Shown here in pieces: positions 1 through 14,557 of a stretch of 14,557 nucleotides of DNA (within the stretch, counting starts at the first letter, position 1; each line of letters begins with the position of its first letter). The translations under genes were made by a program, and so were the position numbers. The stretch is from Syntrophorhabdaceae bacterium PtaU1.Bin034. Lineage in GTDB: Bacteria > Desulfobacterota_G > Syntrophorhabdia > Syntrophorhabdales > WCHB1-27. The notes beneath the pieces are model-generated. The model saw only the letters and a program-made list of their open reading frames with translations. It did not search any database and was not told where the DNA came from. Where the stretch lies: assembly GCA_002067405.1 (NCBI GenBank), contig MVRP01000092.1, positions 1-14,557 of the forward strand. Direction: 5' to 3'.

Positions 1-396
1 TCGTTCTCCATCGAAGCCAAAAAGATCGGGGTAGTCAGCCAGACCACGCTAGACCAGGAGACACTTGCAGACATAGTAAAATCACTGGCTGAGAGCGCGG
101 GGGAACTGAGAGTTTACAACACCATTTGTGAGAGCACAAATATCAGACGTTCGGAGGCTGTCGACTTGGCCAAAAGGGTTGAAGCCATGGTCGTAGTGGG
201 CGGCAAGAACAGCTCCAACACAACAAAGTTGTACAACACCGTGAAGAAGATTCAGCCACGAAGCTATCATGTAGAGACGGAAGATGAAGTTCAGCCGGAG
301 TGGTTTACCGGTCTAAAAAGAGTCGGCATAGCAGGGGGAGCTTCAACCCCTGATATGATAATCGATAAAGTGGAGAGGCGTGTAAATAATTTTTAG
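1..396 (+). CDS. ispH: 4-hydroxy-3-methylbut-2-enyl diphosphate reductase, C-terminal part (5' end outside window)
   Basis: The frame is open from base 1 to a TAG at 394-396, giving 131 residues of the C-terminal part of IspH/LytB. IspH is the [4Fe-4S] enzyme of the last step of the MEP isoprenoid pathway, making IPP and DMAPP in the cytoplasm. Recognisable family signatures are the SQTT segment near the left edge, NTICEST containing the third cluster-ligating cysteine, VVVGGKNSSNT, and the C-terminal GIAGGASTP substrate-loop motif. The upstream cysteines and the start lie outside the window. rpsA follows after 9 bases in the same reading frame, so the two are surely co-transcribed. The fragment is intact as far as seen. 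Identification is by motif recognition and is secure. Confidence 0.96.
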   Translation, partial: SFSIEAKKIGVVSQTTLDQETLADIVKSLAESAGELRVYNTICESTNIRRSEAVDLAKRVEAMVVVGGKNSSNTTKLYNTVKKIQPRSYHVETEDEVQPEWFTGLKRVGIAGGASTPDMIIDKVERRVNNF

Positions 397-405
397 GGGG
401 AATGC

Positions 406-2127
406 ATGGTAGAGACGGTCGATACCAGCACACAAAAAGATAAAACAATAGAAGAGGAGATGAAAGAACTCTATGAAACCTCTATGAGGAACCTTCAGGA
501 AGGGAACATCATAAAGGGCAGAGTGATCGATATAAACGGTGATACGGTTATCGTCGATGTGGGGCTCAAGTCCGAGGGCAAGGTTTCCATGAGCGAGTTC
601 CTCGACAAATCCGGAACGCCCACGGTGAGTGTCGGTGACGAGGTGGAGGTCATGGTAGTGGGGAGGGAGATCAAGGACGGTCTTCTCTCGCTTTCCAAAC
701 AGCGGGTAGACGGTATCAAGATCTGGCACAGCATAGATAAGGCGTTGGAAGAAGGTACCCCCGTTGAAGGGCCGGTCGTCTCGGAGGTGAAGGGCGGTTT
801 TATTGTTGACATTGGAGTGAGCGCATTTCTTCCCATATCCCAGGTAGATGTTAAGCCGGTGAAGAACCCGGCGTCCTTCATAGGCCGCAATCTGAAATAC
901 AAGGTGATCAAGGTCAACCAGAAAAAGGCAAACGTAATCGTCTCCCGGCGTATGTTGATCGAAGAGGAAAAAGAGCGGAAGAGAGCTGAATTCTGGAAGA
1001 ACGTGAAGGAAGGACAGGTCATTTACGGATTTGTGAAGAGCATTACCGATTACGGTGCATTTATAGATCTCGGCGGCGTTGACGGCTTTCTCTATGTCAA
1101 CGATATCACCTGGGGCAGGATCACCCACCCGAAAGAATACCTCAAGCTCGGCGATGAAGTGAAAGTGAAGATAATGAACGTCGACTTCGAGAAGCACAAG
1201 GTGTCGGTGAGCATAAAGGACCTGAAGGGCGACCCGTGGGCGCGCATCGACGAGAAATACCCGGTCGGCTCAAAGGTTAAGGGAAAGGTCGTGGGCGTTG
1301 TGGAATACGGGGCTTTTGTGGAGCTTGAGCCGGGCCTCGAAGGCCTTCTCCATGTGAGCGAAATGAGCTGGGACAAGAAGATGAGGAACCCCGCCAAGCT
1401 TGTGGCTAAAGGCGATATGCTCGAGCTTCAGGTGCTCGATATCGATAAAGAAAAGAAGAGGATATCTTTGGGCCTCAAGCAACTGAGACCCGATCCCTGG
1501 AAAGAGCTTGCGGAGAAATATCCATCCGGGTCGGTGGTGAAGGGCAAGGTCAAGAATTTCACCGATTTCGGTCTTTTTGTGGGCATGGAGGACGGAATAG
1601 ACGGACTGGTCCATATCTCCGAGATTTCCTGGTCCCGCAGAAAGAACATGGTAGCCGAGAGCTACAAGAAGGGAACGCAGGTCGATGCACTGGTCCTTAA
1701 TATCGACCCTGAACACAAGAAGTTTTCGCTGAGCATAAAGAGACTGAGGGAAGATCCCTGGAAGGGTTTGCCCGAGCGTTACCGGGTGGGTGATACGGTC
1801 GAGGGTTACGTCACGAGTATCACCGATTTCGGTGTCTTTGTGGAGATCGAGGAGGGGATAGAAGGCCTTATTCATCTCTCGGAGATCGACAACGGGAAAG
1901 GAAAGCACCCGTCGGAACTATTCAGTATCGACGACGTGGTGAAAGCCATGGTTATCAACGTGGATGAGAGGGAAAAGAGGATAGGACTTTCAACAAAAGC
2001 CTTGAAAAAGGCGGAGGAGAAGAAAGAGGTTGATTCGTTCTCCAGGGAGGAGACCCGTGCCTTTTCTACCCTTGGCGACTTGCTTGAACCTGCGATGAAA
2101 AAGGACAGCAAAGACAGGGAAGCCTAG
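406..2127 (+). CDS. rpsA: 30S ribosomal protein S1 (six S1 repeats)
   Basis: A 573-residue protein with six S1 (OB-fold) RNA-binding repeats at about residues 32-98, 116-182, 202-271, 288-358, 374-445 and 461-531, then a charged tail. Repeats 3-6 show the canonical pattern, for example ITDYGAFIDLGGVDGFLYVND, VEYGAFVELEPGLEGLLHVSE, FTDFGLFVGMEDGIDGLVHISE and ITDFGVFVEIEEGIEGLIHLSE. Repeats 1-2 are divergent, as is usual for the ribosome-binding part of S1. Length and repeat number match proteobacterial S1, which captures mRNA leaders on the 30S subunit. The start is the ATG behind a GGGGGA stretch just after the ispH stop; an overlapping ATG at 402 is out of frame. Trm112 follows 13 bases downstream. 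Confidence 0.96.
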   Translation: MVETVDTSTQKDKTIEEEMKELYETSMRNLQEGNIIKGRVIDINGDTVIVDVGLKSEGKVSMSEFLDKSGTPTVSVGDEVEVMVVGREIKDGLLSLSKQRVDGIKIWHSIDKALEEGTPVEGPVVSEVKGGFIVDIGVSAFLPISQVDVKPVKNPASFIGRNLKYKVIKVNQKKANVIVSRRMLIEEEKERKRAEFWKNVKEGQVIYGFVKSITDYGAFIDLGGVDGFLYVNDITWGRITHPKEYLKLGDEVKVKIMNVDFEKHKVSVSIKDLKGDPWARIDEKYPVGSKVKGKVVGVVEYGAFVELEPGLEGLLHVSEMSWDKKMRNPAKLVAKGDMLELQVLDIDKEKKRISLGLKQLRPDPWKELAEKYPSGSVVKGKVKNFTDFGLFVGMEDGIDGLVHISEISWSRRKNMVAESYKKGTQVDALVLNIDPEHKKFSLSIKRLREDPWKGLPERYRVGDTVEGYVTSITDFGVFVEIEEGIEGLIHLSEIDNGKGKHPSELFSIDDVVKAMVINVDEREKRIGLSTKALKKAEEKKEVDSFSREETRAFSTLGDLLEPAMKKDSKDREA

Positions 2128-2323: not shown

Positions 2324-3205
2324 GTGGGCGATTTTCTGCTTATCTCTTTAACAAAAACCTTTCAGCAAGTCCTTCGCGTGCTTCCTGAAAGGTTTTGCTG
2401 TCTGAAAGGCGTTGCCTTGGGCAGGCTCGGCTATGTTCTCCTTGGCAAGAGGCGCCGCGTTGCAATCGAGAACGCCCGGAGGATTTCGCCCGGGATTTCG
2501 CGATCCGAGGCAAAGGCAACAGCCCGTCAGTGCTTTGAAAATCTTGGTGTTAATTTCCTTGAAAGCCTTCTCTTCCCTTACATAAAAAAGGAAGAGTACA
2601 GCCAAAGGTTCCGGTTGGAAACGCGGGGCAACGTGGAGGGCCTGCTCAAGGCAAACAGAGGCGCCCTTGCCCTCGGGTTTCACTATTCCAATTGGGAAAT
2701 AACAGGCATTGCTTCATTCCTGCTTGGCCGGGAAATCATTGCCCTTGCCAGGCCGCTAAAGGGCCATGCCCGTTTGAATCGATTTCTCAACTCACTTCGC
2801 GGTTCAACGGGCCTCACCATTATCCCGAACAAGGATACCGCGCGGGATGTGCTGCGGCTGCTCCAGGAAAATCGGATAGTGGCCTTTCTCGGGGACCAGA
2901 GGGAGAAACGGTCAAAGGGTGTGTGGGTGGACCTTTTTGGGCAAAAGGTGCCGACTTCAAAAGGCATCGTAATGATCGCAATGAAGACCGGTGCACCTGT
3001 TATCCCCATCTATGCCCGCCGGGATGGGTTTCTACGTTATACCATAGTCTACAACGAGCCTATAGACATCGAGAGAAAGGGCGCTCCCATGGATGAGCTT
3101 ATCGCCAGGAACGCGAGAAGAATAAACGCGTTTCTGGAAGGAATCGTAGCTGAAAATCCTTCGGAATGGTTCCTCGTCCACCGTCGCTTCGGGCGCGACA
3201 CATAA
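2324..3205 (+). CDS. LpxL/HtrB-family lipid A acyltransferase
   Basis: A 293-residue protein of the lysophospholipid acyltransferase superfamily, LpxL/LpxM (HtrB) branch. These membrane-associated enzymes add secondary acyl chains to Kdo2-lipid IVA or related precursors at the inner membrane. Visible signatures are the catalytic HX4E motif, H120-YSNW-E125, then FLGDQ near 188-192, a GAPVIPIYARR strand at about 223-232, and the C-terminal EWFLVHRRFG typical of LpxL. The GTG start 9 bases after the Trm112 stop is chosen because it precedes the N-terminal helix region; its ribosome site is weak, so initiation may be coupled to Trm112. The protein is slightly shorter than E. coli LpxL (about 306 residues). 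The substrate cannot be assigned from sequence. Confidence 0.9.
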   Translation: MGDFLLISLTKTFQQVLRVLPERFCCLKGVALGRLGYVLLGKRRRVAIENARRISPGISRSEAKATARQCFENLGVNFLESLLFPYIKKEEYSQRFRLETRGNVEGLLKANRGALALGFHYSNWEITGIASFLLGREIIALARPLKGHARLNRFLNSLRGSTGLTIIPNKDTARDVLRLLQENRIVAFLGDQREKRSKGVWVDLFGQKVPTSKGIVMIAMKTGAPVIPIYARRDGFLRYTIVYNEPIDIERKGAPMDELIARNARRINAFLEGIVAENPSEWFLVHRRFGRDT

Positions 3206-3356: not shown

Positions 3357-3905
3357 TCAGCTTTCGGCCAGTCTCCGCGCAACCTCCTCGTACTTCTCGT
3401 AGCCGCCGTGTCCCATCTCCTTGAGCTCGATCTTCCTGAACACCTCTATCAGGGCTCGCTGATCATCCGTGGTGAGGATCCGATCCGTGAGCGTATAGAG
3501 CGATTGGTCTTCCTTCACGATATGGTCCTGGATAAGGGTGACATAGCCCAAAAGATTCTTCTCTATGGCGTCAAAATCAGGCAGCATCCCTTCAGCCTTC
3601 ACGCGGGACAGGCTCTCCACGGTTGCCTTCAGCCTTCTCCTCTCCTCTTCGTGTTCCTGAAGCAGCACGGTAACAAGGGACAACACCGCCTCTTTGTCGC
3701 GGTCCGTCATCTTCTTGAAGTAATGCTTTTCTTCTTTCGTGTGATGACACCTGTCAATGAAATTGATGAAAAAATCTATCATTTCCGCCATGTACGGCCG
3801 ATCTACCCTTCCCGCAGCCTTCCATTCGGCTATTTTTCGCTCAGCCGCTCCCAGCACCATCAATATTGTTTTATGCTCGTGTTTAAGCTCGTCTGCCGGT
3901 GACAT
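3357..3905 (-). CDS. Hemerythrin-like HHE-domain protein
   Basis: A 182-residue, mostly helical protein of the hemerythrin HHE cation-binding family, which holds a non-haem di-iron centre. Candidate ligands fall in the expected four-helix order: HEH at 9-11, HHTKEE at 54-59, EHEEE around 84-88 and DHIVKE at 127-132. No signal peptide or membrane helix is seen, so it is probably cytoplasmic. Such proteins bind oxygen or act in oxygen or nitrosative stress responses, plausible for an anaerobe. It has a strong ribosome site (GGAGGAG) just upstream on the minus strand and follows the lipoprotein gene by 83 bases. The long plus-strand frame over the same bases is its antisense shadow. Family assignment is strong, the precise role is unknown. 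Confidence 0.92.
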   Translation of the reverse strand: MSPADELKHEHKTILMVLGAAERKIAEWKAAGRVDRPYMAEMIDFFINFIDRCHHTKEEKHYFKKMTDRDKEAVLSLVTVLLQEHEEERRRLKATVESLSRVKAEGMLPDFDAIEKNLLGYVTLIQDHIVKEDQSLYTLTDRILTTDDQRALIEVFRKIELKEMGHGGYEKYEEVARRLAES

Positions 3906-3988: not shown

Positions 3989-4582
3989 TCACTTGCTTAT
4001 AGAAGTCTCCACCTCATCATCGTATACCGTAAAAACCGTTTCCCGCAAATCCCTCGAATACGGTGTCTGTACCGTACAGGAAACCCTGTAATTGCCCTTC
4101 TCCGAATACGGAGGCAGGTAGAGTGGCACACTCGACCGGTACGTCCCTCCCTTTCTTTCCGTTTCGATCCGGGAGCTCTCCCATATCTTGTTCTTGAACC
4201 ATGTCTCGAGGGTTTCAGTTACTTTTACGGGCTTATCGGAATGGGTCAAAACCGCATAGGTCAACATTACTATGACGTGCTGACCTGCCCTGGCTGTTCT
4301 GGGCCTTACTTCGGCCGTTTCGATTCTGGCTGTTGTCCCGTGGTCATAGAAATACCCGAAGACCTTATTCGTCTCGTCCCGAGACCTGATTGAGACCGTT
4401 TTAGGGCCCACCCTGGGAGTGGCAATGCCTGACCGGTCACTCGGCAATATCGGCTTGCGACCGGCTTCCTCCGAAACCGGCACGGCCGGCCGTTCTCTGC
4501 TCATCAGCGCACACGAAACGAAAACAAACACGAGGACAGGCAGCATAACCAGAACCAGAAGCCCCTTCACTGGTCCCTTCAT
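3989..4582 (-). CDS. Putative lipoprotein with C-terminal beta (Ig-like) domain
   Basis: A 197-residue protein with a hydrophobic leader (residues 7-23) ending in FVSC, so Cys24 is the likely lipidation site. A low-complexity linker (25-70) follows, then a beta-rich region at about 85-187. Its ATG overlaps the TGA of the upstream kinase gene in an ATGA arrangement (4579-4582), implying translational coupling with the LPS kinase. The C-terminal region (KVTET at 120-124, YLPPYSEKGNYRVSCTV at 155-171) resembles the C-terminal domain of the glycine-zipper lipoprotein at 7325-8080. I recognise no named family. A periplasm-facing accessory of the envelope is the most that can be inferred. The -3 lipobox residue is F rather than L, which lowers certainty slightly. 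Confidence 0.75.
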   Translation of the reverse strand: MKGPVKGLLVLVMLPVLVFVFVSCALMSRERPAVPVSEEAGRKPILPSDRSGIATPRVGPKTVSIRSRDETNKVFGYFYDHGTTARIETAEVRPRTARAGQHVIVMLTYAVLTHSDKPVKVTETLETWFKNKIWESSRIETERKGGTYRSSVPLYLPPYSEKGNYRVSCTVQTPYSRDLRETVFTVYDDEVETSISK

Positions 4583-5373
4583 TGCCTTGCCCCGTAAAGA
4601 ACCGACTCCATGAACCAGCCTGCGCGATGCAGGTATCCCCGTGTTTTCTCTTCCCCTTCCATTGTCCTTGCCATATCTACGCCGGAGAGCCTGGCGTAAA
4701 TCCGCAAGAACAATGCCTTCTCCATTCTGCCCACGGCCAGTTGACCCCGTCTCTCCATTTTTTCGACAAATCGGCCCAGTCTCCGGAACATACGCCTCAT
4801 GTCCCCGGGGCTAATAGTTTTCCTGCGGGCCCTGTCAAAGTCAAGCAAGATCAATTCGTTTTCTCTCGTTACGAGCACATTTCTCAGGTGGAGGTCAGGG
4901 TGATACACGCCCTCTTTTTCAAGCTGCCACATGAGGCGAGCGAGCTTCCGCACTATCCTCAGCCTCTGTCTCCTTCCCGATTGTTGCAGATATTCGAGAA
5001 AACTGATCGTATCTTCCTCAAACACGGTAACAAGGTATAATCTCCTGAAAAAAGGCAGTTTTTCAACAATCCCGGCAAAGGGGACAACGACCGGGAACCC
5101 TTTGTCCCGAAGATAGACAAGGATCTCCGCTTCGGCAGTTACCCGTCCCTGATTCAAGAACAGGTCCCTGGTAAGAGCCCTGAAAAGGCCGCCGTGCAGG
5201 TATTTCCGCACAGCCAACCTGAGCCCCCTCGTCTCGATCAGCCTTATTCCCCCTCTTCCCTTACCCGCGACTATCGGAGAATCGGAAAGCCGTCGCACCA
5301 GGGAGGCGGGATCCACAAAAAACGAATAATAGAAGAGGGTGAACCTCCTCCACTGCTTTTTGATGACGGCCAT
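4579..5373 (-). CDS. Lipopolysaccharide (Kdo/WaaP-type) kinase family protein
   Basis: A 264-residue protein with the protein-kinase-like fold of the Kdo kinase/WaaP/InaA group. RKYLHGGLFRALTRD at about 56-70 parallels the RHYRRGG motif of KdkA and supplies the ATP-binding Lys57. TAEAEIL at 79-85 carries the conserved Glu. The catalytic loop is H158-PDLHLRN165 and the metal-binding strand LLDFD is at 176-180. All key residues are present, so it should be active. Such enzymes phosphorylate Kdo or core heptose on the cytoplasmic face before LPS export. The start is the ATG at 5373-5371; its ribosome site is weak. It is the first gene of the minus-strand cluster. KdkA itself is the best guess, but the sugar substrate cannot be fixed. 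Confidence 0.85.
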   Translation of the reverse strand: MAVIKKQWRRFTLFYYSFFVDPASLVRRLSDSPIVAGKGRGGIRLIETRGLRLAVRKYLHGGLFRALTRDLFLNQGRVTAEAEILVYLRDKGFPVVVPFAGIVEKLPFFRRLYLVTVFEEDTISFLEYLQQSGRRQRLRIVRKLARLMWQLEKEGVYHPDLHLRNVLVTRENELILLDFDRARRKTISPGDMRRMFRRLGRFVEKMERRGQLAVGRMEKALFLRIYARLSGVDMARTMEGEEKTRGYLHRAGWFMESVLYGARQ

Positions 5374-6410: not shown

Positions 6411-7313
6411 ATGCGCAGGAACCACTTATCGGTTGTTCTGGCCGGCAGCGGAATTTTCGCACTACTTATTATTGTTTTCCTGATTGCTTTTCTGCCCTTT
6501 ACGGTAAATGCAGCAGGAGCGCCGAAGGGAGCCAAGGCCATCTTCGACAGTGGAGAGGGCTCGACGGTGAGAATGTCTTCAGGCCCTGCAACTCCGGCCC
6601 CTACAACAACTGCCAGAGCGCCCCAGACAGAGAAATACGTAGGCATCTCCTACAAGCTCGCGTTGGTCAAACCAAACGGGGATTTTACCATTGTTCCCAA
6701 GAGCCATACCTTCAGGTCGGGTGACAGGGTGCGTCTCCTGGTCAGGACAAATAAGCCCGGCTACCTCACGATCATGAATGTCGGCCCTTCAGGGAACACG
6801 ACCGTGCTTTTTAACGATGTAATCGAGGCCCGTACGATTTATGAAATTCCGCGAAACACGAATTTCAAGTTCGTGGGTGCGCCGGGAACGGAGAAAGTCC
6901 TGATCATGCTCTCGGCAAATCCGAATCCCATGGGTGCTCCCGCAACGACGACAACGGTCGCTCAGGCTCTGCCCGCACAGTTGCCGCCGCCGTCCGAAGG
7001 TGCTCCACTGCCCCCGACTTCGGCTCCTCTTCCTCCTCCCCCCACTCCTGTTGCCGACGCAGGGAGTAGTCTTCCTCCGCCTCCTCCCATGATGCTTGCC
7101 TCTCTCGAGGGTTCAAAGGACATTGTGCTCGAAGACGACATGAAGACGGGCTATGCGGTTATTTCGCCGAAAAGCGGCTGGAAGCCGGCGAAGAAAGGCA
7201 CCAAGGACATTGTGCTCGAATCGGCAGGCGGCGAAAACTACGGAGTAGTCCCTGTATCCGTCATGGAAGACGGCGGCATTCTCACGCTCGACGTCAAGTT
7301 AAAACACAGATAG
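6411..7313 (+). CDS. Exported DUF4384-type protein with proline-rich linker and KDIVLE repeats
   Basis: A 300-residue protein, first gene of a four-gene operon. Residues 1-34 form a signal peptide or N-terminal anchor (MRRNHL, a long hydrophobic run, possible cleavage after VNA34). Residues about 76-172 match my recollection of the DUF4384 pattern: an exposed strand with FRSGDRVRLLVRTNKPGYLTI, then GNTTVLFND and a late VLIMLSANPNP strand. DUF4384 often occurs with or fused to caspase-like C14 peptidases, and here the peptidase is two genes downstream. Residues 188-226 are a Pro/Ala linker. The C-terminal part has two copies of KDIVLE (236-241 and 265-270), each followed by a GY or NYG segment; the same peptide recurs in the peptidase. 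A likely role is a periplasmic partner or substrate of the peptidase. The exact function is unknown. Confidence 0.82.
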   Translation: MRRNHLSVVLAGSGIFALLIIVFLIAFLPFTVNAAGAPKGAKAIFDSGEGSTVRMSSGPATPAPTTTARAPQTEKYVGISYKLALVKPNGDFTIVPKSHTFRSGDRVRLLVRTNKPGYLTIMNVGPSGNTTVLFNDVIEARTIYEIPRNTNFKFVGAPGTEKVLIMLSANPNPMGAPATTTTVAQALPAQLPPPSEGAPLPPTSAPLPPPPTPVADAGSSLPPPPPMMLASLEGSKDIVLEDDMKTGYAVISPKSGWKPAKKGTKDIVLESAGGENYGVVPVSVMEDGGILTLDVKLKHR

Positions 7314-7324
7314 GAGGCCGTTTC

Positions 7325-8080
7325 ATGAGACTCGTTCACGCAAAAGCAGTATGCCTGTCACTCGTTGCCCTTTTTCTCTTTTCCTCATGCGCATCAATGT
7401 TGCCGGATCCCAATACCATTACGACCGAAGAGGAACGGATCGCGGCGAGAAATAAATGTATGGTCATGTACACCGGCGCAGGTGCAGTCGGCGGCGCTCT
7501 TATCGGCGGGCTGATAGGCGGCGACTGGAAAAGCGCCGGCATCGGTGCTGCGGCAGGCGGTGCAATCGGCTTTGCCTACGCGTGGGGCAAATGCCTCTCT
7601 CTCTACTCTACCCTGAAAAGTCAGCCGGCGGCGAATTATGCGCAGACCGTGCAGCAGACGAACTACAAGCCTTCCCAGGGTAATGTCACGAAGATACAGA
7701 ATTTCACCTTAACACCGGTAGGCGTGCAGCCGGGCGGCGCTGTCAAAATGAACGGTTCTTATTATGTTCTTGCACCCGAGGGCGCAAAAGAGATGAAGGT
7801 CACGGAGACAAGGGTGGTGAAATTCTATGATCCTTCAAAAAGGCAATGGGTTGATCTTGGCCAAGTGGACCAGGAAATAACGGCTGCGCCGGGACAGAGG
7901 AAGGCAGACGGCAATTTCGATATCCCGAAAGACGTGCCCGAGGGCCAGTACAAAATAGCTTTCAAGGTAGCTGCAGAGGGCAAAGAGGATGTCGTTGAAA
8001 GGGATTTGACGGTGAAAAAAGGGCTGGCAATGGGTCAGATAACAATCGCCTCGATGACCCCCGGTTACCTTTACAGATAG
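7325..8080 (+). CDS. Glycine-zipper lipoprotein with C-terminal beta domain
   Basis: A 251-residue protein. Its GGAGG ribosome site overlaps the stop region of the preceding gene, so the two are tightly coupled. The leader ends in FSSC, making Cys22 the probable lipidation site. Residues 51-88 form a glycine zipper (GAGAVGGALIGGLIGG, then SAGIGAAAGGAIGFAYAWG), a pattern of paired membrane-associated helices seen in outer-membrane lipoproteins of the SlyB/17-kDa type. Residues 121-231 are a beta domain ending PEGQYKIAFKV...VERDLTV, related in appearance to the lipoprotein at 3989-4582. Two further cysteines flank the zipper (Cys45, Cys90) and could form a disulfide. It probably anchors or assembles the protease system at the envelope. 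No enzymatic motif is seen. Confidence 0.82.
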   Translation: MRLVHAKAVCLSLVALFLFSSCASMLPDPNTITTEEERIAARNKCMVMYTGAGAVGGALIGGLIGGDWKSAGIGAAAGGAIGFAYAWGKCLSLYSTLKSQPAANYAQTVQQTNYKPSQGNVTKIQNFTLTPVGVQPGGAVKMNGSYYVLAPEGAKEMKVTETRVVKFYDPSKRQWVDLGQVDQEITAAPGQRKADGNFDIPKDVPEGQYKIAFKVAAEGKEDVVERDLTVKKGLAMGQITIASMTPGYLYR

Positions 8081-8101
8081 ATAACGCAGGAGAGGTAGCC
8101 G

Positions 8102-9349
8102 ATGAAGAAGACATTCGGTTGGCTGGCCGTTGTTCTGCTCATCGTGATGGCCGCAGCGGGCTTCGTGTCTGCCACGCCTGCTCCCGTGACCGATGAGCAT
8201 ATAAATCACATCAACCGCTTATTCGGACAGTCCTCCATTACCGGGGGTTACGTTGAGTTTGACCGGTACGGACGCCTGCAGCTGAAGGGCGAGTACGCGG
8301 ATGAAAGGCAGGTCGACGCGGCTTTCTCGATCGCCCAGCAGGTGGTGGGTGTCAAATGGGTATCGCCGGTCACGCCCGAAAATATAAAAGTCAAAGAATG
8401 GGAAAAGAAGATCGGAGGGCTGTTCCAAAGGGCCGGTATTGTCTCTCCGGAGTCGATACCCGGTGCGCCGGGTCCCGTCCGCAACCGCTACGCACTCGTC
8501 GTGGGCGTGGGGCAGTTCAAGTTCGGCATCACCCCACTGCAGTATACGGTGCGGGATGCGACAAGCTTCTACCACTTCCTGTCCGACCCGAACAGGGCGG
8601 GGTTCCCGAGGAACAACATTTATTTTCTTACCGATCAGAATGCCACCCGTCAGAATATCGCCCGGTGCCTTGATGCGATCAGGAACGCAGCGGGGGCCGA
8701 TGACCTTGTCGTGATCTACATGAGCAGCCACGGCACCCCTCCCGACAAGTTCGGCGGTGTCCATGTCGTCTCCTACGATACGGAAGTAAAACCGAGGGAA
8801 CGGGTCTGGCACACAGCGGTGACCGAGACCATGCTCAAGGAATTCGTGGAGAGTCTCAGGGCGAAAAGGCTCGTCATGGTTCTCGATACCTGCTACAGCA
8901 ACGGGGCGTACCGGGGTATCCCGGGCTTTCTCCCCCCCGGCGGCAAGAGCCTCGGTGTTGATACGGACGACGAGGGTTACGGCCTGTCAAAGGCGTATGG
9001 GAAGAGGGTCTTCGGCGCGAAGGATATCGTGCTGGAAGACGAGCCGAAGCCTAAGGTTGCGGGCCGGGCGAAAAGTATGGACAACCAGGACGGGTACGGA
9101 AAAGTCCTGATCGGCGCAAGCAGCGCCGGCGAAAAATCGTGGGAGTCCGATACGCTCAAGAACAGCGTTTTCACGTACTATTTCGTTGATGGGCTTCAGA
9201 GGCATCAGGGTTCGGTAAAGGATGCCTTCTTCTACGCGAAGCCTCTCGTCGACAGGAGGGTGAAACAGGAGAAAGGGGTGGAAATCAGCCAGACACCACA
9301 GGCACAGGCCACCAATCAGGACTGGAATATGCGTTTTATGAAAAGATGA
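8102..9349 (+). CDS. Exported caspase-like (peptidase C14, clan CD) protease with BON-like N-terminal domain
   Basis: A 415-residue protein with an AGGAGAGG ribosome site. Residues 1-24 are a typical signal peptide (MKKTFGWLAV..., cleavage near VSA), so it acts outside the cytoplasm. Residues about 30-97 resemble a BON domain (GGYVEFDRYGRLQLKGEYADE, then an Ala-rich helix and VVGVKWV). The caspase fold runs from about 128: RYALVVGVGQFK, LQYTVRDATSFYHFL, NIYFLTDQNATRQNI, then DLVVIYMSSHGT with catalytic His210 and RLVMVLDTCYSNG with catalytic Cys264. The second half resumes at VLIGASSAGEKSWES (335-349). The stretch between (about 275-333) is the place of the inter-subunit linker and contains KDIVLED at 307-313, the peptide found twice in the DUF4384 partner. 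Both catalytic residues are present, so activity is expected; cleavage specificity cannot be read from sequence. Confidence 0.9.
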   Translation: MKKTFGWLAVVLLIVMAAAGFVSATPAPVTDEHINHINRLFGQSSITGGYVEFDRYGRLQLKGEYADERQVDAAFSIAQQVVGVKWVSPVTPENIKVKEWEKKIGGLFQRAGIVSPESIPGAPGPVRNRYALVVGVGQFKFGITPLQYTVRDATSFYHFLSDPNRAGFPRNNIYFLTDQNATRQNIARCLDAIRNAAGADDLVVIYMSSHGTPPDKFGGVHVVSYDTEVKPRERVWHTAVTETMLKEFVESLRAKRLVMVLDTCYSNGAYRGIPGFLPPGGKSLGVDTDDEGYGLSKAYGKRVFGAKDIVLEDEPKPKVAGRAKSMDNQDGYGKVLIGASSAGEKSWESDTLKNSVFTYYFVDGLQRHQGSVKDAFFYAKPLVDRRVKQEKGVEISQTPQAQATNQDWNMRFMKR

Positions 9350-9380
9350 TCACGTTCCTTAATTAAAGGAGGAGAATTTC

Positions 9381-10007
9381 ATGAAAAAAGAGTTTTTTGT
9401 TTTGTCTTTAGCCGCGGTGCTTGTGTGCGGCGCCTTTTACGGCTGTCAGCAGCAGCCCCAGGCCCCGGCTCCAGCCCCTGCACCTCCACCGCAGGCTGCC
9501 CCCGCTCCTGCACCCACGGCTGCCCAGCCTCCCGCGGCAGCACCGGCGGCCGGTGAACCAAGTCAGGATGTGAAGGCGCATCTGAAACAGGGTATGTCTT
9601 ATGTAAGCGTTGCAAAAAGCTCCGGTTCACCCGCAGCTTTCAACGAGAATATCGGGAATGCAATAAACGAGTTTTCGAATGCAATCAATAAGGACGCCGG
9701 CTACGCAGAGGCGTATTCGAACCGGGCGGTCGCCTACATGCTCCAGAAGAAGTACAACAAGGCCCTGGACGACCTGAAAAAGGCCAAAGAGCTGAAGCCC
9801 GAGAGTGCATCGATCCGCTACAACCTTGCCTCGGTCCATTCTCTTATGGGTGACGTCGATTACGGTCTGGACGAGCTGGATGAGGCCCTCGCGAAGGGCT
9901 TCAATGATTATGATTCGCTCAGGAGAGACCCTGACATCAATAACCTGAGGAAACACAAAGAGTACCAGAAGATCCTGGAGAAGTATAAAGTCTTCATCGT
10001 GAAATAG
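9381..10007 (+). CDS. TPR-repeat lipoprotein with Pro/Ala-rich linker
   Basis: A 208-residue protein, last gene of the operon, 31 bases after the peptidase, with an AAAGGAGGAG ribosome site. The leader ends YGC, with Cys22 the probable lipid-modified residue. Residues 23-58 are almost entirely Gln, Pro and Ala, a spacer that holds the domain away from the membrane. Two tetratricopeptide repeats are clear: about 108-141 (AEAYSNRAVAYMLQKKYNKALDDLKKAKELKP) and 142-175 (ASIRYNLASVHSLMGDVDYGLDELDEAL), with a possible degenerate one before (EFSNAINKDAGY). The end, LRRDPDINNLRKHKEYQKIL, is the usual C-terminal cap of TPR and ankyrin-like modules. TPRs bind partner peptides, so it may be the scaffold that presents substrates or partners to the caspase. 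Confidence 0.86.
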   Translation: MKKEFFVLSLAAVLVCGAFYGCQQQPQAPAPAPAPPPQAAPAPAPTAAQPPAAAPAAGEPSQDVKAHLKQGMSYVSVAKSSGSPAAFNENIGNAINEFSNAINKDAGYAEAYSNRAVAYMLQKKYNKALDDLKKAKELKPESASIRYNLASVHSLMGDVDYGLDELDEALAKGFNDYDSLRRDPDINNLRKHKEYQKILEKYKVFIVK

Positions 10008-10183: not shown

Positions 10184-13100
10184 ATGAACAGCCGTTCTTA
10201 TCCCGCCTTACGTTTCACCGTTTCGCTTGCTTTTGTCTTTCTATTCTCCATTCTCGCGCCCTTCGTTCACGCGCAGGAGGCGAGTGTCGCGGAGAAGGTG
10301 GTCAATCGCTTTCTCGCTACCGGCCAAGTGAGTCAACGCGATCTCCTTCTGCTGATGTCCCAGCCGAAAGAGTTCCTCAGATATCAGCAGGCGCTTAAGG
10401 CCGCGGCGCCGGAACTCGAACATATGGCCCTCGGCATAAGAAGGGTCGTGTTCCAGAATGCGCTCGAGCGGCTTGCGGCAAAGGCAGCAAAGGAAGGAAC
10501 GGTGGTCCAGGCCGTTATCGCGCTCGGTTCATGGGCAGACGCACTGAACGCGGGGGATATGGACATCATCGTCACAGGCGGTCAGCCGGCGGCCAAGGAG
10601 TTCAACCAGCTTCTCCATGAGGAGGTAGAACGGATTTTCCGACAGGAAGGGGATGACGTCTGCCGGGAAGCCTTCTCCAAAGGCGCCCGCTTTACCCTGG
10701 AGACCTTTGAGATCTATGTTTCGACGCTGGAAGACTTCGGCTACGAGACTCTCAAGCAGGCGTACAAGGATGCGGTGGCCATTGCCGCGAAAGAGGGCGA
10801 AGCTGCCGGTGCTGCTTACCTCGAAAGCGCTGCCGATCCGATCCTCAGAAGGAACCTGAACGCCCAGCGTTTTGCCGCAGTCCAGAAGGAGTACTATCCG
10901 GGCGCGTCGGGTCAGGATTTTGTCAGAGAGTATTTCAACAAGAAGGGAAAGTCGAGAACCTGGCGGGTAGGCGACAACTTACGCACCGACGATGCATGGG
11001 ACAAAGGTATGACGGTCGATAAGCTCAAGAAGGCCATGATCAGGGATTTGGGCCTCTCCGTGCGACAATCGTCCGGTGCTTTCAAATTCCCCGTCATTGC
11101 CGATGAACTTGTCCAGTGGGGAGAAAGGGCGAAACTGGGCGCCAGGGAGCAGGCAAAAGGACTGGTGAGGGCCTATGAAGCGCGTCCGAAAGGATACCTC
11201 GGTCTGTTTACCGAGGAGCAGGATCGTCTTCTGCGCACTGCCCGTATGGTTGCGGATGCGGAGAGAGAGAACGTTGCCTTCATCAAAAATGCCCTGCGAT
11301 CCAACGGTTTCTTCACCGAGGAGGCCTTTTCCCAGGCCGGTGAGGCCATGCTATGGGACCTCACCAAGGCAAGCAACAACGAGGCTTTTATAATAATTGT
11401 CGATAACCAGAAGGCCGCCATTGAAGCAACAAAGGCAGGCAGACACGTAGAGGCGGAGTATCGTCGCATCAAGGACTACATGATGAGCAACGAACAGCTT
11501 GCGGGGTACAGCAAGCTCAAGCCGGAGCACCTGAAGGGACTCGCCAAGGATTTCGAGGCTCAAGCATCCAAGCTTTCCGAGGCAGCAAGAAAGGCGTCCT
11601 ATTTGGATGAGATGGCTGCTCTTCTTGAATACATGGCCGAGGGGACAGTTAAAGGCAAAGGCCAAGCAATAGATATGCTGGTGAAGCTCCTCGATCTTGC
11701 AAAGCAGCAGAAGCGGCTGACCTCCGAGGTCTATGACCAGGCCGTCGCCCTTGCCCGCGCCGAAAAAGAACTCCCTTCCGATATCGAACAGGTTGTCGCC
11801 GTGTTAAGGCGGGACCTTTCCGACCTGGCGAGCATACGCGCCCTCTCGCCGGCATCGGACACCATGGCGAACTGCATCGGCACTTCATCACTTTTTACCA
11901 AGGGCCAACTCGTTTACACCAAAGAGCTGGAGGAACTCGTTACCGAAATCGGCAAGCTGAGTGACGTAGAGCTTCTCCGGCTTGGTTTTAAGAACAGCGA
12001 AATAGCCCTTCTCAAGGAGATCAATGCCGCACAAAAGCAGGGCGTGCGGCTTGCCGCCGTAGGTGAGGCCCTCAAAAAGGCATCGCCCAAGAACTGGAGG
12101 ACGGTGCTCAAAGGCTTCATTGAGGAGGCCAGAAAGACGGCCCCCGGATATCTTGCCTTCGGAAGCGGTTTCGCCCTCTGGCAAGTCTGGAAGATTGCAA
12201 ATGACCCGTCAATACCCGAATCGGAGCAGACCAAGTACCTGGGGGACGCGATTTACGGCGCTTTTCCTACAGTCGGCCTCATGTTCGACGGCATACCCAT
12301 GGCTGCTGTGAGCTTTTCGGCAGGGGGTGAGGTTGACAAGGCTGCCCTCGCCCAGGGAATCGGTCTTTCCGTCCTGGAGATCGTCGGAATCACGAACCCG
12401 GTTGTCGGCCTGACTGCCCTCGCCGTGTATGTCGGGGCAACGGTCACAGTGAGCATGTTACAAGCAGACAGTGACCGTCGTTTCGTTCAGGCCCTCTATG
12501 ATGCATACGACGACAACACCCTGAAGATCCAGGGGGGTGGGAAGCGAAGCTTCGACGTCATGGGACTTCAGCTTCTGTTCGACCCGACAACCAGGCAGCC
12601 TATCATCAATCATTCTGCGGCATTCAAAGAGCTTTACACGAAGGACGGAGATGTCCTTCTTGATACGGGCGAAGGCCGAAAGCCTTACGACACGAAAATC
12701 AACGCCGCAATAAGGGATTATGCGAAGCGATACGTATGGGATTCGAACAACGACCTGAAGGTCTGGGCACAAGCGGTCAGGAACTATTTCCCCGGGCTCG
12801 ATCTTGATCAGGTTGAATCCTGGAATCTCGGAGAGGTAAGCGCCCAGGCTCCGGAGGTCGCCGCCAATCAGTTTAAGGTCGGTGCCAGGCTGGTGCGCAG
12901 ATATCTCAACCAGCGGGATCTCCTTGTAGAGGCGACGCTTCGCCAGCTGCGAGGCAGGATCAACGATATGAAGGAGACCGTACAGTCGACGGACGACTGG
13001 GAAAGGGAGCTTGCCGACATAGAGAAAACCCTTGCCGTGGAAGGGAAGATCGTTCCGAATGCGAAAGCCGAGCAGGCGAGTTTTCTCGGCTGGGCATGGG

Positions 13101-14557
13101 ATGCAGCCACGACCCCTCAGACGAGGATTGAACAGGTGGGCGGCATCTGGAAAAGATACCTCAAAACTTACAAGGAAGCAGTCGGGGTCAATGACCGGGT
13201 AACAAAGGTCTTTGCAGCCGCCGGCCTTGAAGCGCCCGGCGGAGGCGATCTTTTCGGGATCGTCGGGGTCGAGGCGAAGGACAAGCCGAAGATCGACGAG
13301 GTTTACCAGGCATTCAACGAGACCTACGACAAGGCGTATCAGGAATACCGGGGGGCGAAGGGAAGCAATCCCGATCCCAATGACGCCTACGATGCCGATG
13401 CATTTCTGACGCGCCTTATGAGCCTCCGTATGCGTCTCTTTCTTGCGAAGTTCATGCCTACCACCCAGGCCAGGACCGCGTCCCTTGAAAAAGACATGGT
13501 GGACCTTCTTGAAGAGGTAAGAGAGCATTACAAGAGCAGCATCGATCTGACCCTCACCGGTCCTACCCAGTCCGAATTTCAGAAAGATGTAAGTATTGAG
13601 GCCCTGGCTAAAGCAAAGACGAAGGCAGGGGAAGCCAGTCTCGCACAGACGCGCGTAGAATGGTATGTGAACGGCAAATATTACGGCCAAGGAAGCAACC
13701 TGTCGTTCAGCCCACTCAAGGAAGGCACGTACAAGGTGACCGCTTACCTGGTAACCGAGATGCGCGGCAAAAGGGAGTCGATAGTCTCCCGCGACCACAC
13801 GATCACCATCGTTCCAAAAAAAGAGGAAGATAGGGACAAAAAACCGGGCGATGACGACGCCGCGAGCAAGATCACGGGAGAGAAAAAAGAAGATGGAAAG
13901 GAAGAAGAAAAGAAACAGGCTGTTTCGTGCTCCTATGAATACTCGGAATGGGGCGAATGCAGCAGGGCTACAAAGAAGCAGACGAGGACGGTAACAGCGA
14001 GGAAACCTGCCAATTGCGTCGAAAAACAGAAGCCCTTCCTGGAGCAGGGCTGCACCCCGCCGCCCACTGAAGAGGAATTGAAGAACCGCTACCTTAACTG
14101 CGTATGCCGCTGCTCAAGCGGGTGGGCGTCGCACATCGGTGTCTGGTATGATCCGGAAGGCAAGTCCAAACCCGAATGCGACAGCAGCGGTCCCTGCTTC
14201 GGAGGGGCCGGCGCCTTCGGCTGCACCAGACGGCACTTCTTCGGAGGACCGAATGACTGTGTGAAGGCGTGCTGGGAGGGTGTCTACGGGAAGGATACCT
14301 ACGACCCGGACAAGGCCGACAAGATAAGGCGGGAGGAAAACAAGAAACACAAGAAGCCCCTCAAGGTAACAATCAAAGCCTCCAAAAACCCCGCTGATTT
14401 TGGTGATATCATTAATTTGACCGCCGAGGCGGCCGACGGGACGGGCGGCTACGTGTACACGTGGGGCGGCTGCGCGCAGGACGCCAAGGCTGCCCAGGCA
14501 AAGGTCGTCGACACCAGGGACTGCAAACCCTGTACGGCGAGCGTCACCGTGACGGAT
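10184..14557 (+). CDS. Giant secreted multidomain protein, N-terminal 1458 residues (3' end outside window)
   Basis: One frame is open from the ATG at 10184 to the last base, 1458 codons without a stop. Residues 1-30 are a signal peptide (cleavage likely after VHA30). Residues 113-130 contain GS (115-116) and D125-M-D127 in the pattern of nucleotidyltransferase folds. About 150-650 is helical, charged and of no family I recognise. Hydrophobic stretches lie at about 655-668, 689-713 and 725-759. Residues 1157-1212 are PKD/Ig-like (VEWYVNGKYYGQGSNLSFSP). A highly charged Lys/Glu/Asp linker follows, then a thrombospondin-type-1-like module (1249-1290, SEWGEC), a Cys-rich segment (1306-1363) and the start of another PKD-like domain (1392 on). 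A separate surface or secreted protein, possibly adhesin- or toxin-like; the function is not identifiable. The 446-codon antisense frame at 12458-13798 is a shadow. Confidence 0.9.
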   Translation, partial: MNSRSYPALRFTVSLAFVFLFSILAPFVHAQEASVAEKVVNRFLATGQVSQRDLLLLMSQPKEFLRYQQALKAAAPELEHMALGIRRVVFQNALERLAAKAAKEGTVVQAVIALGSWADALNAGDMDIIVTGGQPAAKEFNQLLHEEVERIFRQEGDDVCREAFSKGARFTLETFEIYVSTLEDFGYETLKQAYKDAVAIAAKEGEAAGAAYLESAADPILRRNLNAQRFAAVQKEYYPGASGQDFVREYFNKKGKSRTWRVGDNLRTDDAWDKGMTVDKLKKAMIRDLGLSVRQSSGAFKFPVIADELVQWGERAKLGAREQAKGLVRAYEARPKGYLGLFTEEQDRLLRTARMVADAERENVAFIKNALRSNGFFTEEAFSQAGEAMLWDLTKASNNEAFIIIVDNQKAAIEATKAGRHVEAEYRRIKDYMMSNEQLAGYSKLKPEHLKGLAKDFEAQASKLSEAARKASYLDEMAALLEYMAEGTVKGKGQAIDMLVKLLDLAKQQKRLTSEVYDQAVALARAEKELPSDIEQVVAVLRRDLSDLASIRALSPASDTMANCIGTSSLFTKGQLVYTKELEELVTEIGKLSDVELLRLGFKNSEIALLKEINAAQKQGVRLAAVGEALKKASPKNWRTVLKGFIEEARKTAPGYLAFGSGFALWQVWKIANDPSIPESEQTKYLGDAIYGAFPTVGLMFDGIPMAAVSFSAGGEVDKAALAQGIGLSVLEIVGITNPVVGLTALAVYVGATVTVSMLQADSDRRFVQALYDAYDDNTLKIQGGGKRSFDVMGLQLLFDPTTRQPIINHSAAFKELYTKDGDVLLDTGEGRKPYDTKINAAIRDYAKRYVWDSNNDLKVWAQAVRNYFPGLDLDQVESWNLGEVSAQAPEVAANQFKVGARLVRRYLNQRDLLVEATLRQLRGRINDMKETVQSTDDWERELADIEKTLAVEGKIVPNAKAEQASFLGWAWDAATTPQTRIEQVGGIWKRYLKTYKEAVGVNDRVTKVFAAAGLEAPGGGDLFGIVGVEAKDKPKIDEVYQAFNETYDKAYQEYRGAKGSNPDPNDAYDADAFLTRLMSLRMRLFLAKFMPTTQARTASLEKDMVDLLEEVREHYKSSIDLTLTGPTQSEFQKDVSIEALAKAKTKAGEASLAQTRVEWYVNGKYYGQGSNLSFSPLKEGTYKVTAYLVTEMRGKRESIVSRDHTITIVPKKEEDRDKKPGDDDAASKITGEKKEDGKEEEKKQAVSCSYEYSEWGECSRATKKQTRTVTARKPANCVEKQKPFLEQGCTPPPTEEELKNRYLNCVCRCSSGWASHIGVWYDPEGKSKPECDSSGPCFGGAGAFGCTRRHFFGGPNDCVKACWEGVYGKDTYDPDKADKIRREENKKHKKPLKVTIKASKNPADFGDIINLTAEAADGTGGYVYTWGGCAQDAKAAQAKVVDTRDCKPCTASVTVTD

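Follow-up and report, generated by a model that had tools for sequence, protein, structure and literature searches.

Many but not all metacaspases and orthocaspases of the C14B kind depend on Ca2+, and few natural substrates of bacterial relatives of caspases are known. The closest comparison for the system described here is Arabidopsis metacaspase 4 (AtMC4). Its linker residue Lys225 occupies a pocket formed by Asp137, Ser84, Asp352 and Ser350, between the catalytic residues; it blocks the active site, uncut, in the resting enzyme and is then the first self-cleavage site (PMC7206013). The metacaspase CgMCA-I cuts its linker at Arg307 and Lys263 (PMC9622860), and a basic P1 residue is expected for the bacterial C14B orthocaspases and metacaspases (PMC6426788, PMC8283722). 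Here I describe an operon in a 14,557-nucleotide stretch of DNA (the window; contig MVRP01000092.1 of Syntrophorhabdaceae bacterium PtaU1.Bin034), in which the linker of an exported caspase-fold protease and the C-terminal part of a separate DUF4384 protein carry the same short peptide, KDIVLE.

Like AtMC4, which is its best fold match, the window protease has a caspase-like core, a conserved linker Lys and an acidic S1 pocket, and the self-processing in the linker known for AtMC4 is predicted for it. AtMC4, for its part, comes from a plant, depends on Ca2+ and has a large linker domain, and the available text on it mentions no partner repeating the linker peptide. The bacterial C14B enzymes resemble the window protease in the His-Cys dyad and the C14 fold as well as in the expected P1, but the window protease is exported and has a BON-like N-terminal domain (both called by eye), and it belongs to a conserved operon with DUF4384, Gly-zipper and tetratricopeptide repeat (TPR) genes. 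In the available texts, DUF4384 occurs as a domain within orthocaspases or trypsin-like-domain proteins, whereas here it forms a separate partner with a common peptide. The open-access PubMed Central literature held no mention of KDIVLE, and the available parts of its articles on DUF4384 with caspases describe domain architectures, this operon and peptide being absent from them. A self-processing metacaspase-like protease would be of a known kind, self-processing being a prediction here; the new part appears to be a partner with the same motif, the motif being jointly replaced in both proteins in some lineages.

An earlier note, made from the window alone, had placed KDIVLED in the protease linker and KDIVLED and KDIVLES in the DUF4384 protein, and the translations of the open reading frames (ORFs) agree (Table 1). 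Its account of the codons also holds: both DUF4384 copies read AAG GAC ATT GTG CTC GAA, while the protease copy reads AAG GAT ATC GTG CTG GAA, with three synonymous differences. The codon identity of the two DUF4384 copies is a local detail; in other genomes the codons differ between the copies. Since the synonymous codons differ and the repeat is old, recent DNA copying of the peptide was rejected, as that note had proposed in regarding the match as held at the peptide level or of independent origin. In the window alone, a common 7-mer arose in 7 and a common 6-mer in 146 of 20,000 shuffles of the DUF4384 protein, while the score of a gapped local alignment of the two window proteins was matched by 79 of 2000 shuffles and is not significant by itself. 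The weight of the peptide sharing lies with the homologues, and judged from the sequences compared below, the sharing is not due to chance.

Protein searches gave 814 and 334 homologues, of which the best 120 of each were listed; a more distant query added 81 proteases, making 201 listed proteases. GxKD is present in the linker of all 201, and the longer pattern GxKD[ILVF][VTIMAL]x[DE] in 194, the seven exceptions being KDLVxV. The position of Lys307 lies 42 or 43 residues past the catalytic Cys in 199 of the 201 (the pattern failed to place the other two). Two C-terminal KD sites are found in each of the 120 listed DUF4384 homologues. Thus the absence of the peptide from orthologues, which would have spoken against the earlier idea, was seen in none of the listed proteins. 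Near the N-terminus, 119 of the 120 DUF4384 homologues have GAK[AGS][ILMV], a possible third copy; among the paired DUF4384 proteins described below it reads GAKA[ILV]F[DE]S in 40 of 44, the remaining four having GAKAL, GAKGL, GAKGM and GAKGL (the 45th protein is without its N-terminus). The three K sites of the DUF4384 protein exceeded all 1000 column permutations. The protease has a further candidate, GGKSLG, which is kept as G[GA]KS[LIM] in 201/201 listed proteases; column permutation gives as many as two such conserved sites in the protease in 138/1000 cases. This conservation is therefore not above permutation, and GGKSLG may be a second processing site or may simply be structural.

Pairing of the two proteins gave 45 operons: the window, 28 genome loci and 16 pairs inferred from contigs of the same length. 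K-D is kept in 45/45 proteases, in 45/45 second DUF4384 copies and in 44/45 first copies, the last one (L092) having R-D. Among 295 six-residue windows of the DUF4384 protein, KDIVLE of copy 2 ranks second in conservation after NYGVVP, and copy 1 ranks 15th; the two copies form a tandem repeat of 19 columns (45 rows). No conserved element of the protease stands between the motif and the freely varying stretch after it (0.51 vs. 2.10 bits). The Asp that closes KDIVLED is kept in DUF4384 copy 1 in the 45-row alignment, while it has a weight of 0.67 in the protease, where KDIVLDE, KDIVLEE, KDLVLES and KDIVLEG also occur, and Ser, Thr or Asn is usual at this position in copy 2.

Is the similarity wider than the motif? 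In a profile comparison of the linker segment with the partner tail, the motif scored 32.4 over 15 columns, above all 200 column shuffles (maximum 26.4), and the score fell to 9.9 when the motif was removed. Homology of the linker (residues 268-360) and the DUF4384 tail (222-300) outside the motif was ruled out on this ground. A comparison of whole profiles, with signal peptides removed, again placed the best local protease-DUF4384 match at the motif (E 1.7e-4, probability 50%). Four of the other five family pairs of the operon were at E 0.14 or worse; the fifth, DUF4384-TPR, reached E 0.004 over a single column and was taken as an artefact. At the joint 80% threshold, neither the Gly-zipper nor the TPR family shows a conserved copy of the motif, and column-wise counting gave one such TPR column, which permutation reached in 124/1000. 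A motif scan of 46 genomes returned the operon sites and others. The proteins at 11 outside loci, a part of the scan matches, were named by eye; they look unrelated (guanylate-kinase-like, corrinoid-protein-like, amidohydrolase-like and others) and were set aside as relatives.

The most telling cases lie among three more distant operons. A Paraburkholderia plasmid (L141) carries a homologous set of Gly-zipper, protease and DUF4384 genes without KDIVLE. Its protease linker reads YTSKGIRFSDD, while the C-terminal copies of the partner are YAAKGIAFAAED and YAAKGIAFSDD and its copy close to the mature N-terminus is YTAKSLFFGEDD; the linker Lys falls in the Lys307 column of a MAFFT alignment and, like Lys307, lies 43 residues past the Cys. 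In G229 (L154), SVRDIVLVD and SSRDIILTS stand in the partner and RARDIIVTA in the protease. In G324 (L147), the partner has YSRSIRLVQ and YSRSIRTVY and the protease RGRSIRVIS. The counterparts of the N-terminal copy in the distant operons are TAKSLFF, SARSLFM and SARNLFM. Lys or Arg is uniform within each of the three operons at the sites given, and among the KDIV-type pairs only the L092 copy mentioned above has Arg.

Partner copies were scored against their own protease with 2000 shuffles, and the observed score was reached by 0 for the window, L095 and L094, by 1 for L141, by 8 for L154 and by 91 for L147. These counts support matched change in L141 and L154; L147 is not significant, its score in a gapped alignment was reached by 1724/2000 shuffles, and G324 was rejected as a matched replacement. 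Two of the three distant operons thus show a statistically supported exchange of the peptide in both proteins, to KGIxFSDD in Paraburkholderia and to RDI[IV] in G229. On their own protease the L141 copies reach 25.5, with 13.5 as the highest score on any other; for the L147 copies the figures are 18.5 and 13.0. A KDIV/KDLV form is common to the window, L095 and L094, whose copies fit one another's proteases roughly as well as their own; those of the window score 37.5 on the window protease and 37.5 on that of L094.

The comparison of orthologous operons that the earlier note had called for thus gave a divided answer, with joint replacement in L141 and L154 and little to see inside the KDIV clade. 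There, changes at the variable positions (V/T, L/M/V, E/D) do not, by eye, go together in the 45 pairs. In L091 and L095, I is replaced by L in the protease and in each of the two partner copies, but the two loci belong to a single clade; in P0042, one partner copy has L against I in the protease. Position-by-position co-variation inside the clade is therefore weak and was not retained.

The two genes also occur together. In the class of G003, the protease (E 1e-20) was found in 12 of 46 genomes and DUF4384 (E 1e-5) in the same 12; in a sample of the class of G002, the protease (E 1e-30) was found in 10 of 200 genomes and DUF4384 (E 1e-5) in the same 10. With these thresholds, both proteins are present in 22 genomes and absent from 224.

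Which residue would be recognised? The positions of an acidic S1 pocket were all found in the window protease: an Asp in helix 1, a Ser at His-2, an Asp at Cys-2 and an Asp/Glu in p10. Asp152, Ser208 and Asp262 are invariant in 42 rows, and Glu348 is probably the p10 acid. Both Asp residues align with those of metacaspases, which formed the sequence-aligned comparison set (no caspase among them), with the pocket residues taken from PMC4357240 and PMC7206013. The enzyme looks metacaspase-like with an acidic S1 pocket, and therefore Lys (or Arg), not Asp, is the likely P1, which favours GAK|DIVLE over IVLED|. Metacaspase 9 is reported to prefer an acidic P1' residue.

These results suggest that the protease recognises, and perhaps cuts, itself and its partner at the common peptide. 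On balance, I favour the reading in which the active site of an exported metacaspase-like protease recognises a short motif with KDIVLE as its core, both in cis and in trans. What was observed is the conservation, the restriction of the similarity to the motif, the co-occurrence, the matched replacement in two distant operons and the acidic S1 residues; I infer from these the entry of Lys or Arg into S1 and the cleavage of the bond. The motif would be roughly [G/A/S/T]-[A/S/T]-[K/R]-[D/G/S/A]-[I/L]-x-hydrophobic. In cis, Lys307, at its fixed distance from Cys264, would enter the acidic S1 pocket and keep the zymogen shut, and would then become the self-cleavage site, the first cut by analogy with AtMC4. 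In trans, the DUF4384 partner would offer the motif two or three times from probably flexible segments (residues 227-243 and 262-268 largely have a predicted local distance difference test score, pLDDT, below 50 in the model), as a cognate substrate or a pseudosubstrate brake. The recognition part of the earlier idea of a recognition or cleavage site is thus supported by conservation and matched replacement, while a cut after the Asp of KDIVLED is unlikely, with Lys the better P1 for a metacaspase-like S1. A bolder version is a serious possibility that I would stop short of calling probable: a cognate cleavage code, in which a Lys/Arg-centred motif, with one or two sites in the linker and two or three in its partner, has changed as a unit in separate lineages (KDIVLE, KGIxFSDD, RDI[IV], perhaps RSIR), so that self-activation and partner processing are coupled. 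A motif common to linker and partner and changing in step would name a likely physiological substrate or inhibitor, predict a scissile bond, allow specificity tests with matched and mismatched pairs of the family, and give an exported caspase relative of the cell envelope a concrete mode of action.

Several points weigh against recognition by the active site. The partner repeat of L147, YSRSIR, is matched weakly in the protease, at its C-terminus, and the Ser at His-2 is replaced by Ala in that protease. The G229 protease copy precedes the catalytic Cys; neither this L154 copy nor the L147 protease copy is in the p20-p10 linker, so a placement in the linker does not hold everywhere. With the L154 copies, the own protease gives 21.0 and the window linker 21.5, their RDI being a version of KDI. 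By eye, a few residues separate the N-terminal DUF4384 copy from the likely mature end, which is odd for a processing site and speaks for docking more than for cleavage. Maturation of CgMCA-I went on when both linker cleavage residues were changed to Ala (PMC9622860). Metacaspases are described as having a loose P2-P4 preference (PMC10896300); therefore, the long conservation of DIVLE exceeds what cleavage alone would need. At E 1e-12, 117 of the 315 genomes gave C14 matches, almost all of them weak and covering part of the domain, and operons were examined in eight known genomes of the 117, so the rest could hold unmatched cases.

It is unlikely, though worth keeping in mind, that the partner motif fills the active site or linker groove uncut, making the DUF4384 protein a dedicated inhibitor or chaperone. 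Such a pseudosubstrate would account for conservation past P1 to D-I-V-x-E, beyond the needs of a loosely specific enzyme's substrate; it has a precedent in the uncut blocking Lys of resting AtMC4 (PMC7206013) and suits a pair found in the same 22 of 246 genomes. A partner with two to three copies is less expected of it, and AtMC4 and CgMCA-I do cut their own linkers after Lys/Arg. A shade less likely is a third protein, such as the Gly-zipper or TPR lipoprotein, that binds the peptide of both. The linker peptide of caspase-9 and the peptide of Smac/DIABLO both bind XIAP, and there too a partner carries a copy of a protease linker peptide; in that case a third protein binds both, whereas in the window system the protease itself is the likely receptor. 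The conserved four-gene operon, the alternating hydrophobics (strand-like by eye, and able to join a sheet) and a copy near the free N-terminus of the partner, suited to docking, are what such a ligand would predict; the acidic S1 pocket of the protease and a motif centre that is always Lys or Arg are not.

Coincidental likeness of two independently conserved structural strands is very improbable: KD[IL]V-type peptides do occur in unrelated-looking proteins of the same genomes, but the matched replacement in Paraburkholderia and G229 and a profile similarity limited to the motif, above all shuffles, are hard to reconcile with it. A caspase-type cut after Asp (KDIVLED|) in linker and partner can scarcely be credited. 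The Asp is kept in DUF4384 copy 1 and an acidic residue is often there in the linker, yet the weight of the Asp in the protease and the Ser, Thr or Asn of copy 2 argue against it, as do the metacaspase-like Asp/Ser/Glu S1 positions and the lack of cleavage after Asp in the metacaspases studied (PMC10896300).

Table 1. Features of the window, with positions on the 14,557-nucleotide stretch
Feature	Position	Strand	Basis or remark
GAKDIVLED, protease linker copy, residues 305-313	9014..9040	+	KDIVLED itself: residues 307-313, 9020-9040
KDIVLED, first C-terminal DUF4384 copy, residues 236-242	7116..7136	+	
KDIVLES, second C-terminal DUF4384 copy, residues 265-271	7203..7223	+	
GAKAIFD, possible third (N-terminal) DUF4384 copy, residues 40-46	6528..6548	+	directly after signal peptide
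GGKSLG, possible second linker site, residues 280-285	8939..8956	+	18 residues past catalytic Cys
Exported DUF4384 protein, 300 aa from ATG 6411	6411..7313	+	ORF, profile search, model
Gly-zipper protein, same operon, lipobox by eye	7325..8080	+	profile matches under curated cut-offs
Exported caspase-fold protease, 415 aa	8102..9349	+	ORF, PF00656 66.1 bits, model
TPR protein closing conserved operon, lipobox by eye	9381..10007	+	profile search, gene order
Haemerythrin-like protein	3357-3905	minus	by eye
WaaP/Kdo kinase-like	4579-5373	minus	profile search
Lipid A acyltransferase	2324-3205		profile search
Ribosomal protein S1-like	406-2127		by eye
End of IspH-like gene	1-396		by eye

The DUF4384 protein matches PF14326 over residues 100-171 with 48.4 bits against a curated cut-off of 27; by eye, it has a signal peptide and a Pro-rich linker in addition to the N-terminal GAK motif, the two KDIVLE repeats and C-terminal strands. 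The protease belongs to the caspase-fold C14 enzymes, with the domain at residues 129-403 and the dyad His210 and Cys264; its signal peptide was called by eye. A BON-like domain lies ahead of C14 at about residues 31-90 (window 8192-8371), a call made by eye and from the helix-strand-strand-helix order of the model, without a Pfam match. The mean pLDDT was 58.4 and 66.2 for the protease and DUF4384 models, i.e. low confidence, and Foldseek with the DUF4384 model gave no match at E 0.001. With pLDDT below 50 over most of the peptide segments in both models, the models say little about burial of the peptide in the fold, which the earlier note had raised.

On plasmids, tblastn of one protease returned 26 records, one of which (Paraburkholderia) covered at least 80% of the query, and further searches returned only that record. 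Viral contigs gave no relative and phages no DNA match. The caspases of G315 and G365 had no DUF4384 match within the stretch examined.

The gene order DUF4384, Gly-zipper, protease, TPR recurs in the window and 18 loci and then in 10 further loci, some with missing or cut members and the most distant ones with extra genes ahead of TPR. At L153 (G949; 8658-9533, minus strand), the protease gene beside the DUF4384 gene stops ahead of the catalytic Cys and looks broken or truncated. Beside the window operon, positions 10184-14557 encode a very large exported protein of 1458 aa that is open at the window end, and its homologues adjoin the operon in several loci, on either side.

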